Origin: Alphaproteobacteria bacterium
GTDB taxonomy: Bacteria > Pseudomonadota > Alphaproteobacteria > Rhizobiales > Aestuariivirgaceae
Length of the DNA stretch: 5,125 bases
Reading direction: 5' to 3'
NCBI GenBank assembly: GCA_020441605.1
Contig: JAGRLX010000375.1
Coordinates: forward strand, 1-5,125
The position numbers and the translations under genes are program-made. Shown one piece after another: positions 91 to 4,801 of the stretch; the first letter of the stretch is position 1, and each line of letters starts with the position of its first letter. The notes under the pieces were generated by a model. It made no database searches. It had not been told where the DNA came from and worked only from the letters and a program-made list of their open reading frames with translations.

Positions 91-2331
91 ATGCAGGAGC
101 AGCCGAAACACAGAGTGATTGCTCTTCTCGCCTATGCGGTTGCTCTCTTGTGCATTCAATATTTCGTCGTCAGCTCCCAGTTTGAGCCGAATGAAAAGGA
201 GATCTGGTTGCTAAACGGCATCGCAGGTCTGCTGTTTGGATCCCGGTTGTTGAACCCTCATTTCACGCCGCCCGCCGACGCAGCAACGAATGGGTTTGTT
301 GCGTTTGCCACACTGGTGGTGGCAACCAGTGTCGTTCCTGCTCGAACTCTCGACTCGACCTTGCTGTGGGCAACGCTGATGTTCTGTGCGGCTGTTTCTC
401 TGGCTGCGATTGTTGTGCTGCTCGTACGTGTACAGAAGGGTGTTGAGACTCGCTCATGGGTCCCTGTCGTCGACAAAGCAGTTAGGAGTCTTGGAAGTCC
501 CAACACCATATTCACTCTAGTGATCTTGCTTGTGTGTTGGCTTTTTCACCGGAAGCATCCAGTCGAGGTCTATTTCATTCTCGCGGTCTGGACCGCAATC
601 GTGGCTCTTCGGCCAATCGAATCGATGCTATCTTTGTGGGCTTGGTACCGAGAGCAACCAGAGACGCTCAAGAGTGATCGCATTGTCGGAGATATAGCTG
701 CTTACCAAGCGCCCGGCATAGTCTTAATCCGTCAACTTGGCGACCATCGTTTTTCCCGAGGCACACCCTTGTTGGTAGCGGATGACAACGGGCCTTGGAT
801 GCTCGGTGTATCACTTAATTATGTGGGGCGTGACGAAGGCAACTTGTTGCGCACGCTAACGGTTCCGCTTCCTCAGGCACTATCTGACCGAGTCGCCAAT
901 CTACCTTTGCCGATGGGCTCAGGTGTTGCTCTATCCCTAGGTCTACGACAGGAGGAAATTGAGCGTATATATCCACTCCTTGAGGCCGATCGTCTATGCG
1001 GCGTAGTGGATAGTGAAACGACGCTGGAACACCTTCAATTTGAGGTCATCGACGATTCTGAACTCTGCGAAGGCAGGCTCGTTGAGGTCCGCATTGGGGA
1101 AACTACGACGATCTTCCAGGTGATAGACGGACTGACACGCGACGAGATTGTCCAGCAAAAGAACAAGTATGGATATGCGCGAGCTGTGGCGCGGAAGATT
1201 GGCCGGTGGGATCGAGATTTGGAGAAGTTTGTGCCGGTGAAATGGATTCCGCACATCAACTCTCCGGTTTTTCTAATGAGACCCGAGCAAATCGATCCGG
1301 ACGCGCAGACAGTTGGGAACTTTCCAGATACATCTTTTGGAGTTGGCCTAAGTATCTCCGACGCCGTTACGCACAACACCGCTATCCTTGGCATACTCGG
1401 TGTTGGCAAGAGCTATCTCGCGGTAGAGCTCGTTGAGCGCATGATAGCCAGCGGCGTCAAGGTCATTTGTTTGGATCTTACGAACCAGTACACTGAGCTC
1501 TTGAGCGATTTTCTAGATACTGAGCACGAAGAGGGTGAACTTGAGAGACTGGTTGCCTCGGGTGAGGGCGGCGTAGCCAATCTGAATCAGGAGCAAGGTG
1601 GAAGCCATCAGCGATTTCAAGCGGAGGCTGTACGGCAACTGCGCGAATTCATCGCACCCGCGTCCGGGCGCTTCTTGCGCATCTACAATCCAGCCCAGTT
1701 CAAAGTCACGCGCCAAGCAAGTGGCATGTTCAATAACAACGCCAATATGGCGACTCTAACACCCTCCGAAATCACCGCGATTATTACTGATGCCGCATTA
1801 CTAGTGTGCCAGGAACTCGGCATGACCGACAGCGGCCGTGTTTGCCTTGTGTACGAAGAGGCACATACTCTTGTTCCCGAGTGGAATTCAGTTGTTGCCG
1901 ATGGGGACAAAGCTGCCACGTCGCGAAGCGCCCGCGCGATCCTTCAAGGTAGAAAGTACGGATTGGGTTGTTTACTTATAACTCAGCGAACCGCGAATGT
2001 GACGAAGACAATTCTGAACCAGTGCAACACGATTTTCGCAATGCGGACATTCGACGACACGGGTAGGGAGTTTTTGTCGAACTACATTGGCAGAGACTAC
2101 GCGGGGGCACTTCCGGCCTTGGATGCGCGTCACGCCGTCCTGTTCGGGAAAGCATCGACGTGCGAAAATCCTGTCCTAATCAGGCTAAATGATAGAGAGC
2201 GGTTCCAAGCGGTGTTTAGACCGCAACATCCCCCACCGCCACTTCCTCAGGCCCAAGCACCGATCGCCGCTGCGGACGTGCCCGCGCGGGCCAATTCGGC
2301 CAACGATCCTGACGACGAAATACCGTTCTGA
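91..2331 (+). CDS. Membrane-anchored HerA-type ATPase (DUF87) with an SSB-like C-terminal tip
   Basis: This 746-residue protein belongs to the HerA/FtsK group of P-loop motor ATPases that pump or unwind DNA. Hydrophobic segments lie near residues 9-28, 38-54, 69-84, 91-114, 139-152 and 159-174, so the N-terminus is probably embedded in the inner membrane. Residues about 195-395 look like HAS-barrel material, including the HerA-like stretch at 327-395 (QVIDGLTRDE, QKNKYGY, VKWIP). The ATPase core follows: Walker A GILGVGKS (434-441, K440), Walker B LVYEEAH (586-592, E589/E590), GRKYGLG (620-626) with R621 as possible arginine finger, and TQR at 631-633 followed by NQCNT. The tail from about 711 is Pro/Ala-rich and ends DPDDEIPF (739-746), like an SSB tip. 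The start is supported by taaggtgaggag just upstream (76-87). Defence HerA proteins usually pair with a nuclease, but none adjoins here. Class is sure; function is not. Confidence 0.88.
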   Translation: MQEQPKHRVIALLAYAVALLCIQYFVVSSQFEPNEKEIWLLNGIAGLLFGSRLLNPHFTPPADAATNGFVAFATLVVATSVVPARTLDSTLLWATLMFCAAVSLAAIVVLLVRVQKGVETRSWVPVVDKAVRSLGSPNTIFTLVILLVCWLFHRKHPVEVYFILAVWTAIVALRPIESMLSLWAWYREQPETLKSDRIVGDIAAYQAPGIVLIRQLGDHRFSRGTPLLVADDNGPWMLGVSLNYVGRDEGNLLRTLTVPLPQALSDRVANLPLPMGSGVALSLGLRQEEIERIYPLLEADRLCGVVDSETTLEHLQFEVIDDSELCEGRLVEVRIGETTTIFQVIDGLTRDEIVQQKNKYGYARAVARKIGRWDRDLEKFVPVKWIPHINSPVFLMRPEQIDPDAQTVGNFPDTSFGVGLSISDAVTHNTAILGILGVGKSYLAVELVERMIASGVKVICLDLTNQYTELLSDFLDTEHEEGELERLVASGEGGVANLNQEQGGSHQRFQAEAVRQLREFIAPASGRFLRIYNPAQFKVTRQASGMFNNNANMATLTPSEITAIITDAALLVCQELGMTDSGRVCLVYEEAHTLVPEWNSVVADGDKAATSRSARAILQGRKYGLGCLLITQRTANVTKTILNQCNTIFAMRTFDDTGREFLSNYIGRDYAGALPALDARHAVLFGKASTCENPVLIRLNDRERFQAVFRPQHPPPPLPQAQAPIAAADVPARANSANDPDDEIPF

Positions 2332-2559: not shown

Positions 2560-3531
2560 ATGCGAAATAGTCTGTCATCAGTTGAACTCTGTGCCGGAGC
2601 CGGAGGCCAAGCATTGGGCCTGGAACGCGCAGGTTTTTCTCATGAAGCCGTCGTAGAAATCGATGAACATTGCCGCAATACATTGCGGCTGAACAGACCC
2701 GAATGGAATGTCGTCGAAGATAACCAGGCGGATATTTCGAATTTTGACGGTCGTCCTTTTAGAGGTATTGATCTTCTAGCCGGAGGGTTGCCGTGTCCTC
2801 CGTTCTCGGTCGCCGGCAAGCAGCTAGGCCGGAAAGACGAACGGAACCTCTTTCCCGATGCCCTGCGCTTAGTTGACGAGACCCGCCCCAAGGCTGTGAT
2901 GATTGAAAACGTGAGGGGATTTTTGGATGCCGTTTTCGCTGATTACCGGCAGCAACTAAAACGCCAGCTTTCCAAACTTGGATATGTGACGGATTGGCAC
3001 CTGTTCAACGCGTCAGACTTTGGTGTGCCCCAGCTCCGGCCACGCGTCGTAATCGTGGCCATGCGCCGTGACTTTGCAGATCAGTTCTCTTGGCCTGTTC
3101 CGAATTGCAACACGCCGCCCACAGTGGGAGAGATCTTATTTGATCTCATGAGCGAAAAGCGGTGGCGCGGAGCAGTGCGGTGGCGCGATCAAGCAGACGA
3201 GATTGCGCCGACGATTGTTGGTGGTTCAAAAAAGCATGGTGGACCCGACCTTGGTCCAACCCGCGCAAAGCGAGCCTGGGCGACACTTGGTGTTGACGGC
3301 ATGGGTATTGCCAATGAAGCGCCAGACCGCAACTTTGTTGGGATGCCGCGCCTCACCGTGCGTATGGTCGCGCGCCTTCAGGGCTTTCCTGACTCCTGGG
3401 AGTTCTCGGGCCGCAAGACGGCAGCTTACAGGCAAGTTGGAAACGCCTTCCCACCGCCTGTGGCAAGCGCGGTTGCAACGAATATCCTTGAGGCGCTGAC
3501 TGTGCGCCGATCCGTTCCGGTCGCGTCCTGA
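2560..3531 (+). CDS. C5-cytosine DNA methyltransferase of the restriction-modification system
   Basis: This 323-residue enzyme should transfer a methyl group from S-adenosylmethionine to carbon 5 of cytosine, protecting host DNA from the neighbouring endonuclease. The family motifs appear in order: motif I ELCAGAGGQALGL (9-21) for cofactor binding, motif IV GGLPCPPFS (75-83) with catalytic C79, motif VI IENVRG (115-120), motif VIII QLRPR (158-162), a target-recognition region about 180-260, motif IX around RMVARLQGFP (268-277), and motif X YRQVGNAFPPPVA (290-302). The length is typical of a monospecific enzyme and no motif is missing. The ATG at 2560 is preferred because GAGGGAGGA lies 4-5 nt upstream; a TTG at 2545 in the same frame has no such site and would add only five residues. 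There is no N-terminal helix-turn-helix extension of the kind some autoregulating methylases carry. Its stop overlaps the next start. The predicted target, GCCGGC, is inferred from the partner enzyme. Confidence 0.95.
   Translation: MRNSLSSVELCAGAGGQALGLERAGFSHEAVVEIDEHCRNTLRLNRPEWNVVEDNQADISNFDGRPFRGIDLLAGGLPCPPFSVAGKQLGRKDERNLFPDALRLVDETRPKAVMIENVRGFLDAVFADYRQQLKRQLSKLGYVTDWHLFNASDFGVPQLRPRVVIVAMRRDFADQFSWPVPNCNTPPTVGEILFDLMSEKRWRGAVRWRDQADEIAPTIVGGSKKHGGPDLGPTRAKRAWATLGVDGMGIANEAPDRNFVGMPRLTVRMVARLQGFPDSWEFSGRKTAAYRQVGNAFPPPVASAVATNILEALTVRRSVPVAS
2812..2817. other. GCCGGC site inside the methyltransferase gene
   Basis: This is one of only two GCCGGC hexamers found by eye in the window. 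It lies in codons 84-86, just after catalytic motif IV. If the cassette recognises GCCGGC, its own methylase gene is both a substrate and a potential cut site when methylation fails. Confidence 0.8.
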
Positions 3532-4376
3532 TGCCAGAGGCGCTGCTATCACAAGCCCGGCGGGAGTTTCATGCCACTATACTTGAGGGCATACTGACAC
3601 GGAGCCACGCTGGCGTGCCGAGCAATGCTGACAAGGCAAGCAAGCCGAGCATTGCTGTTGCCAATTCTATTCTCGACCAACTCGGCACAGCACGGACCGC
3701 CCCTAAACTTCCAGGGCAGACCGCGGGCGCCGATTTCGAAGGAGTCTGCGCGGTCTTTGTGAATGTCTGCTTCGAGCGAATGCAGCATCTGCGTCCGGGA
3801 AAATTTAGCGTCACAAAGGGCGGGGCTATTGCGCAATTCGATCAGTATGCGCACTTGGACGAACTGGAAGAGATTGCCAAGAACAATCGGGAGATTGCCA
3901 CCGCACTTGGGTCTGACTACCTCATCAAACCGGACATTGTCGTTGCGCGGCAGCCGGAGGAGGACGCTGTTATCAACGCCAGCGGACAACTTGTAGACAG
4001 CGAGACAGCCCGGCTCAGCAGCCTCAGAAAGGTAAACCAGCCGCTCGCTATCTTGCATGCTTCGATAAGCTGCAAATGGACGCTTCGCAGCGACCGCGCT
4101 CAGAACGCACGTTCGGAAGGACTCAATCTTGTCCGCAACCGCAAGGGCAACCTGCCGCACATCGCGGTTATTACGGCTGAGCCTCTGCCCGCCAGAATCG
4201 CCTCTCTTGCTCTTGGTACTGGCGACATCGATTGCGTCTACCATTTCGCACTCTATGAGTTGCGACGCGCGCTAGTGGACCAGGAACGTGAAGAGACGCT
4301 TGACCTTCTGGACACGATGATTGAGGGCAAGAGACTACGTGACATATCGGACCTGCCGCTCGACCTCGCTATCTAG
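3531..4376 (+). CDS. NgoMIV-family type II restriction endonuclease (predicted target GCCGGC)
   Basis: This 281-residue protein resembles NgoMIV of Neisseria gonorrhoeae along its whole length, a tetrameric enzyme that cuts GCCGGC after binding two sites. Compared with remembered NgoMIV residues, E70, D135, S180, K182 and E196 match the metal-binding and catalytic set E70, D140, S185, K187 and E201. RSDR (186-189) matches the reader of the central CCGG (R191/D193/R194), Q63 matches the minor-groove contact, and D34 and R222 match the residues I recall contacting the outer G:C pair. The near-identical block runs about 174-245 (SCKWTLRSDR, ARSEGLNLVR, DCVYHFALYE). The five-residue offset after E70 comes from a shorter loop around 95-105. 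The start aligns with the NgoMIV N-terminus. No ribosome-binding site precedes the ATG, which overlaps the methylase stop as TGATG, so translation is probably coupled. Similarity to a betaproteobacterial enzyme suggests horizontal spread. Specificity is predicted, not shown. Confidence 0.95.
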   Translation: MPEALLSQARREFHATILEGILTRSHAGVPSNADKASKPSIAVANSILDQLGTARTAPKLPGQTAGADFEGVCAVFVNVCFERMQHLRPGKFSVTKGGAIAQFDQYAHLDELEEIAKNNREIATALGSDYLIKPDIVVARQPEEDAVINASGQLVDSETARLSSLRKVNQPLAILHASISCKWTLRSDRAQNARSEGLNLVRNRKGNLPHIAVITAEPLPARIASLALGTGDIDCVYHFALYELRRALVDQEREETLDLLDTMIEGKRLRDISDLPLDLAI

Positions 4377-4378
4377 TT

Positions 4379-4801
4379 ATGGCTGATAAAATTCCGGAAG
4401 ATCGGCGCAGTTGGAACATGAGCCGCATCCGGTCCAAGGGCATGAAGCCCGAATTGGTGGTGCGGCAGCTTGTTCATGGCATGGGCTATCGCTACCGCCT
4501 TCACCGCAAGGAGCTTCCAGGAAAGCCTGATCTTGTGTTCGGCCCACGCCGCAAGGTGATCTTTGTGCATGGGTGTTTTTGGCATCAGCATGCTGATCCC
4601 AGCTGTAAAATTGTCCGCACACCCAAGTCCCGGCTTGATTATTGGAAACCTAAACTCGATAGAAATGTTGAGCGCGATCGCGCCGCACAGGATACGCTGA
4701 ATGCGAGCGGTTGGAAGTGCTTGACTGTTTGGGAGTGCGAAACGCATTCGGCGCGATTGCCCGAGCTCGCAGAACGATTGGAGAGGTTCCTGGAGGATTA
4801 G
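4379..4801 (+). CDS. vsr: Vsr very-short-patch mismatch repair endonuclease
   Basis: Vsr nicks next to the T of a T:G mismatch produced when 5-methylcytosine deaminates, so that the T can be replaced by C. The 140 residues carry the family signature with nearly the same numbering as E. coli Vsr: E25, D51 in GKPDLV, H64 and H69 in HGCFWHQH, and F67/W68 that intercalate into DNA. C66, H71, C76 and C120 form the structural zinc site, and VERD (97-100) and WEC (118-120) complete it. Position 63 is V where E. coli has T, which is common in homologues and not a sign of damage. The gene begins 2 nt after the endonuclease stop and has no clear ribosome-binding site, implying coupling. Its length is near the family norm. 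Being in this operon, it probably acts at deaminated GCCGGC sites rather than at the CCWGG sites of E. coli Vsr; that specificity is inferred. Confidence 0.95.
   Translation: MADKIPEDRRSWNMSRIRSKGMKPELVVRQLVHGMGYRYRLHRKELPGKPDLVFGPRRKVIFVHGCFWHQHADPSCKIVRTPKSRLDYWKPKLDRNVERDRAAQDTLNASGWKCLTVWECETHSARLPELAERLERFLED

Follow-up and report, generated by a model that had tools for sequence, protein, structure and literature searches.

We report that a HerA-type ATPase with a predicted membrane domain ends in what is very probably a genuine SSB-type docking motif. The protein is encoded in the window, by which we mean the whole 5,125-nucleotide stretch of DNA analyzed here; its open reading frame (91-2331) terminates in ...RANSAN-DPDDEIPF, followed by the stop codon at 2329-2331. 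Recurrence of this tip peptide in many relatives suggests that the pump borrows DNA-processing enzymes of its host. As judged from motifs and a structure model, the protein would be a stand-alone, membrane-anchored HerA DNA translocase; it is most likely an antiphage or anti-plasmid protein. The following features were assigned.

91..2331, + strand: gene for a HerA/DUF87 ATPase of 746 residues (open reading frame; Pfam DUF87; PADLOC HerA models)
91..651, + strand: predicted N-terminal membrane domain, residues 1-187, about six hydrophobic helices (hydropathy peaks, structure model)
682..984, + strand: beta-rich stretch between the membrane and HerA parts, residues about 198-298 (predicted strands)
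982..2220, + strand: HerA-type barrel and RecA-like motor, residues about 298-710
1390-1413, + strand: Walker A motif, GILGVGKS
1855-1866, + strand: EEAH
2221..2304, + strand: Pro/Ala/Gln-rich linker, residues 711-738 (pLDDT, composition, poor alignability)
2305..2328, + strand: SSB-type acidic C-terminal tip DPDDEIPF, residues 739-746 (C-terminal sequence, homologue comparison)
2560-4801: complete-looking NgoMIV-type restriction-modification set with Vsr, directly downstream of the HerA gene

The protein matched Pfam DUF87 with 36.2 bits (above the curated cut-off of 23.2) and the PADLOC HerA models with a best value of 3.1e-23. Walker A and Walker B motifs were intact, and over 112 aligned rows G434, G437, G439 and E589-E590 were invariant, with K440 and S441 conserved in at least 90%. 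Both the HerA barrel and the RecA-like motor fold were found in the protein, and a single-chain structure model combined this HerA fold with membrane helices (residues 5-25, 35-50, 61-78, 87-112, 123-152 in two pieces, and 157-173) and a disordered tail. By a simple hydropathy count, at least three hydrophobic segments were present in the N-terminal part of 198 of 200 de-replicated family members. The initial annotation had described the last eight residues as an SSB-type tip preceded by a Pro/Ala/Gln-rich, probably disordered linker. The first point was confirmed and is stronger than originally stated, and the second was borne out as well: residues 711-720 were still modeled with confidence (pLDDT 95), disorder was predicted from about residue 721 (mean pLDDT 63, 47 and 46 across 721-746), and linkers of homologues could barely be aligned. 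An SSB OB-fold domain was not detected in the HerA protein (no PF00436 match at E 0.1 or better).

Homologues were collected by three protein searches, with the best 120 of 1038, 953 and 947 matches, yielding 347 distinct proteins, seven of which had fewer than 680 residues. A tip was defined as D or E, one to three residues, P and a terminal F or Y; under a stricter rule P also had to be preceded by I, L, V, M or F. Among the matches listed, an acidic-then-P-F tip terminated 179 of 347 homologues, a count that includes the window protein and fragments and does not represent a family-wide rate; by query, the tip-bearing matches listed were 42 of 120, 94 of 120 and 43 of 107. The same rule was satisfied by one of 614 mechanically called neighboring ORFs, which ended in KIEPPF, and the stricter rule by 171 of the 347 listed homologues versus none of these ORFs. 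Over the 179 listed members, the consensus was F-D-D-D-I-P-F, the same as in E. coli SSB (F in 61 at position -7; D in 114 at -6, 154 at -5 and 126 at -4; I in 122 at -3), P at -2 being set by the selection rule and F at -1 nearly so. Since the E. coli SSB tip is given as MDFDDDIPF in a passage of PMC7145534, the likeness takes in the aromatic residue at -7. Tips were also found in proteins of Gammaproteobacteria, Betaproteobacteria, Balneolota and Bacteroidota at identities of 39-45%, distant tip-bearing loci being L013, L014, L018, L020, L021 and L032 (39.7-45.0%). Protein P0013 and locus L001 are filed as Spirulina, yet are 65% identical to the window protein, and the contig may be contamination.

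The tail past the last conserved FR was 22 to 63 residues long, tip included, and the linkers of the 179 tip-bearing listed members were composed of 21.6% P, 13.6% A and 12.0% E. Alignment of homologues, which had been suggested as a check on the tip, gave a divided answer. Among 507 tip-bearing pairs at 45-60% core identity (out of 700 sampled), the tip was kept while the linker varied: identity was 31% in the linker (26% when shuffled) versus 68% in the last six residues, two of which (P and F) were fixed nearly throughout by the selection rule. On the other side, 168 of the 347 listed homologues had no tip by our rule, one of them (P0018) ending in NQIPF. Such tip-less homologues of the same architecture had been regarded as evidence against the tip; their number speaks for an optional module and not for a chance match. 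As about half of the listed family is without it, the tip is an optional module, one that changed often, and the motor can work when it is lacking. It was absent from sphingomonad relatives about 56-57% identical (L004, L005 and L012) and from Bacteroidota loci L024-L028. In a FastTree phylogeny of 200 rows, de-replicated at 80% from 370 and comprising 102 members with the tip (ends of the NQIPF type of P0018 counted too) and 98 without, the tip state changed 39 times versus 55-78 times in 200 shuffles. The tip is partly inherited and was often lost or regained.

With regard to function, we lean towards the view that the tip recruits host SSB partners to the membrane HerA motor, a reading suggested by the sequences. 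Six HerA subunits would form a ring at the inner membrane and engage double-stranded DNA, perhaps that of a phage or plasmid which is entering the cell or being replicated. The flexible tails, up to six in number, could capture SSB-interacting enzymes of the host and keep them on the pumped DNA, and the recruited enzymes would replace the dedicated partner (NurA, SIR2 or DUF4297) of other HerA systems. Recruitment is, in our assessment, the best reading, with a decoy action and self-control of the motor ranking as rivals. Of the original interpretation, the SSB-type docking motif as seen in sequence, the disordered linker and the predicted membrane domain were retained; ExoI was given up as a general partner, and the explanation of the missing nuclease is considered weak.

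To our knowledge, known HerA defense motors bring their own effector, and HerA-NurA, SIR2-HerA and DUF4297-HerA are without an N-terminal membrane domain. In these three systems (SIR2-HerA being Nezha) the effector is encoded next door, whereas the present HerA has no fixed partner gene and is set apart from them by the predicted membrane domain and the SSB-type tip; the NCBIfam antiphage HerA equivalogs also scored far below their cut-offs (50.5 of 850 and 37.6 of 800 bits). The tail resembles SSB-Ct in having a Pro-rich linker of variable length and D-D-D/E-I-P-F at a free C-terminus; however, it is carried by a predicted membrane motor, not by an ssDNA-binding protein. FtsK/SpoIIIE and TrwB-type coupling proteins matched the present protein more weakly than the best HerA chains did, and we know of no SSB-type tail in either. 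Among the matches listed from open-licence PMC papers, no title or abstract described a HerA with an SSB tip. Four SSB-tail terms are absent from the Hna paper (PMC13381803), no membrane HerA is described in two passages of PMC10853773 that contain the words membrane or transmembrane, and in the available parts of PMC11981726 DDDIPF appears only as an SSB peptide.

Candidate partners were assessed in tip-bearing host genomes. RecJ and PriA genes were each present in seven of seven such genomes, RecO in 7 of 8, chi (HolC) in 5 of 8 and the ExoI C-terminal domain in 3 of 8; genome G001 was counted in the eight-genome checks (ExoI, chi and RecO) and left out of the seven-genome ones (RecJ and PriA), and absences are weak in those assemblies that are draft or metagenomic. 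ExoI had been named among the partners at the outset; as it was missing from five of the eight genomes (some draft or metagenomic), it is not a general partner, and HolC was likewise rejected in this role on its occurrence in five. The accompanying idea that the tail explains the lack of an adjacent nuclease proved weak, given that tip-less members are also without a fixed nuclease neighbor (L023 excepted).

Several published observations are relevant to the remaining candidates. According to passages of PMC7145534, the isolated nine-residue tip of E. coli SSB binds PriA and chi, and in a crystal structure of Deinococcus RecJ with the SSB tip, as described in part of PMC4846377, the last Phe lies in a deep pocket. 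Deinococcus HerA binds and stimulates RecJ, and the extra RecJ C-terminal domain is a feature of the Deinococcus-Thermus phylum (both from the abstract of PMC4663267). The Deinococcus radiodurans HerA-RecJ pair is likewise a case of HerA working with this nuclease; there the contact, by the same abstract, is made by the extra C-terminal domain, whereas the tail of the present HerA could use an SSB-Ct pocket. The SSB-tip pocket and the HerA contact of Deinococcus RecJ both lie in that domain, which makes the analogy to the present hosts a loose one. For the same reason, we doubt that RecJ in particular is the recruited partner, even though it would be the most economical and likeliest nuclease partner, with PriA and RecO as the likeliest others.

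A decoy action, in which the tails occupy SSB-binding pockets and deliver no enzymes to the DNA, draws on the same sequence evidence as recruitment; restart and repair enzymes would be kept off phage (or host) forks and replication would be stopped near the membrane. In its favor, a ring would offer several tips at one point. However, cellular SSB should supply far more tails than a membrane protein of low copy number, which makes bulk titration unlikely, and a decoy would not need the motor. Although in E. coli nothing beyond the tip is needed for binding, as stated in passages of PMC7145534, we consider this action unlikely.

Resemblance of the tip to that of the host SSB counts in favor of recruitment. 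SSB genes were present in all 19 genomes with a family member, and the HerA tip tends to lean towards the SSB tip of its host group. The HerA and SSB ends were, respectively, IDDDLPF and IDDDLPF in L014 (a Balneolota member, Aliifodinibius, with identical ends), FDDDIPF and FDDDIPF in L013, FDDDVPF and FDDDIPF in L020 and L021, FDDDMPF and FDDDIPF in L018, LNDQIPF and LDDEIPF in L022, and FEDDIPY and FDDDIPF in L032. Within genomes, the two agreed at 42 of 49 positions (last seven residues, seven genomes, G001 left out), and 120 of all 5040 HerA/SSB pairings were equally good or better. Residue -4 was E in 28 and D in 8 of the first-query HerA tips, whose named members are nearly all Alphaproteobacteria, versus E in 14 and D in 118 of the other two sets (Fisher 1.1e-14, relatedness uncorrected); residue -7 was L in 15 and F in none of the former, versus L in 8 and F in 61 of the latter. 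SSBs of the Hyphomicrobiales genomes G007, G009, G010 and G013 end in LDDEIPF. Two HerA proteins named Bacteroidetes and Bacteroidales (P0275 and P0305) end in DLPF, like the SSBs of Bacteroidota G017 and G018; in G016 the main SSB ends in NMAF and a second SSB in DLPF. Since shared ancestry contributes and direct pairing was limited to seven genomes, the agreement is support, not proof.

This agreement bears on the second rival, a sensor or self-control device in which a basic pocket of HerA or of SSB holds the tip until, in an infected cell, SSB or DNA displaces it and the motor is switched on. Among ssDNA-binding proteins, there are known cases of acidic tails competing with DNA. A defense system triggered by phage SSB has also been published (PMC10732053, in the parts available). 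However, a self-docking tail should track HerA, whereas residues -4 and -7 lean to the host SSB (a comparison confounded by ancestry). In addition, tip-less members are common (168 of 347 listed) and the tail was not confidently placed in the single-chain model; self-control of this kind appears improbable to us.

The tip was further compared with similar ends elsewhere in host genomes. The pattern D[DE][IV]PF followed by a stop had 24 matches in 19 host genomes and its reversed control had four. The 24 comprised 15 SSB-family proteins, three membrane HerA proteins (the pattern misses HerA ends such as DLPF or DMPF), one phage-type SSB, two members of a second accessory family, one unknown and two short frames. 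DD[DE]IPF followed by a stop was present in 54 of 57 relatives of the Amphritea genome, and the reversed control in none; 30 of these loci were read, and 26 were SSB by signature, three were short frames with SSB-like ends and one was a 52-codon frame. Further loci with the tip pattern were SSBs, two DUF3127-like phage-type SSBs and a few short frames. A chance C-terminus was rejected on these pattern counts together with the occurrence of the tip in 179 of 347 listed homologues versus one of 614 neighbors. Hydrophobic C-terminal residues can act as degrons, and the tip might have another function that only resembles SSB-Ct, such as a C-terminal degradation or localization signal; this is very unlikely, considering that 19 of the 24 matches fell on SSB-type proteins or membrane HerA and that the consensus from -7 to -1 equals that of SSB, aromatic residue included.

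The tip was also found on a protein family unrelated to HerA. Two of its members, encoded on the minus strand at L162:1501-2256 and L163:1501-2280, are 26% identical to each other and both end in ELDDEIPF. Eleven members were read (L162, L163, L191, L192, L193, L194, L195 and L197-L200), nine of which had the tip (L195 and L199 did not). These proteins have about 220-265 residues, a hydrophobic stretch recognized by eye and a Pro-rich linker, and neither of two members tested had a Pfam or PHROGs match. On three Methylobacteriaceae plasmids, the gene is followed, after about 160-180 bases, by a DNA methyltransferase gene and a phospholipase-D-family gene. Counting HerA, at least two accessory families that are unrelated to each other have thus adopted the SSB-type tip. 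It is possible, and we offer this tentatively, that the SSB tip is a portable plug by which unrelated accessory genes commandeer host SSB partners. If so, a membrane DNA pump would gain nuclease and helicase activity while encoding none, an immune motor carrying the docking peptide of host SSB would be hiring the repair enzymes of the cell, and the sufficiency of one gene would be explained. An SSB tip on a non-SSB protein would then be a searchable signature for more such systems.

The gene is rare, being found in 4 of 369 gammaproteobacterial and 6 of 385 alphaproteobacterial genomes, counts that include the starting genomes (G006, G002 and G007), a fragment (G134) and copies with internal stops (G100 and G532). 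Clustering of neighboring ORFs from 38 sources revealed no fixed effector or partner gene. The largest cluster (6 of 38 sources) was recombinase-like, its L004 and L016 members being serine recombinases; the next (3 of 38) included a type I methyltransferase at L019, and the others had two sources or one. At 1e-5, PADLOC models matched 10 of 20 hand-picked neighbor proteins: IetS and a type III methyltransferase (L013), a type IIG enzyme (L014), an AAA protein with weak likeness to AriA/OLD (L022), DRT8 (L002 and L081), a retron-VII reverse transcriptase (L081), a type I restriction subunit (L010), a type I methyltransferase (L019) and a type III restriction subunit (L024). The antiphage role, which we consider most likely, is guilt by association only, since the other ten neighbors had no match and L033 adjoins a metabolic gene (methylmalonyl-CoA mutase). 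Integrases or serine recombinases near L001, L022, L004 and L016, the serine recombinases of the largest cluster and the action of HerA-fold motors in conjugation could point to DNA movement, that is, recombination or transfer of the carrying mobile island. This is highly improbable, as that cluster is restricted to 6 of 38 sources and the gene occurs sporadically (4 of 369 and 6 of 385 genomes), in many cases with restriction or abortive-infection genes next to it.

A phage or virus origin was rejected: 50,697 phage records yielded no match, and of 31 stretches in viral contigs that fitted one or other of two short patterns, none could be confirmed. Positions 1-34 of the window resemble the 3' end of a tRNA truncated at the window edge, which may place the gene at the boundary of an island; ARAGORN found no tRNA in the window, and a search for a right-end repeat found no word of at least 11 bases shared with its first 60 bases.

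Several additional loci were observed. In Omnitrophota, a PD-(D/E)XK nuclease gene (L023:8952-9614, + strand) lies 21 bases downstream of a distant, tip-less member; a mirror-image pattern of tip-less members with an adjacent nuclease was rejected, L023 alone being too few. The Sphingomonas laterariae genome encodes a 126-residue protein ending in SEDDDIPF (L189:2503-2883, - strand) with no Pfam or PHROG match. At L002, a DRT8-type reverse transcriptase gene is directly downstream of the HerA gene, and on an Aminobacter plasmid (L081:14360-18045, + strand) a DRT8-type reverse transcriptase gene adjoins a retron-VII-type one downstream of a tip-less member.
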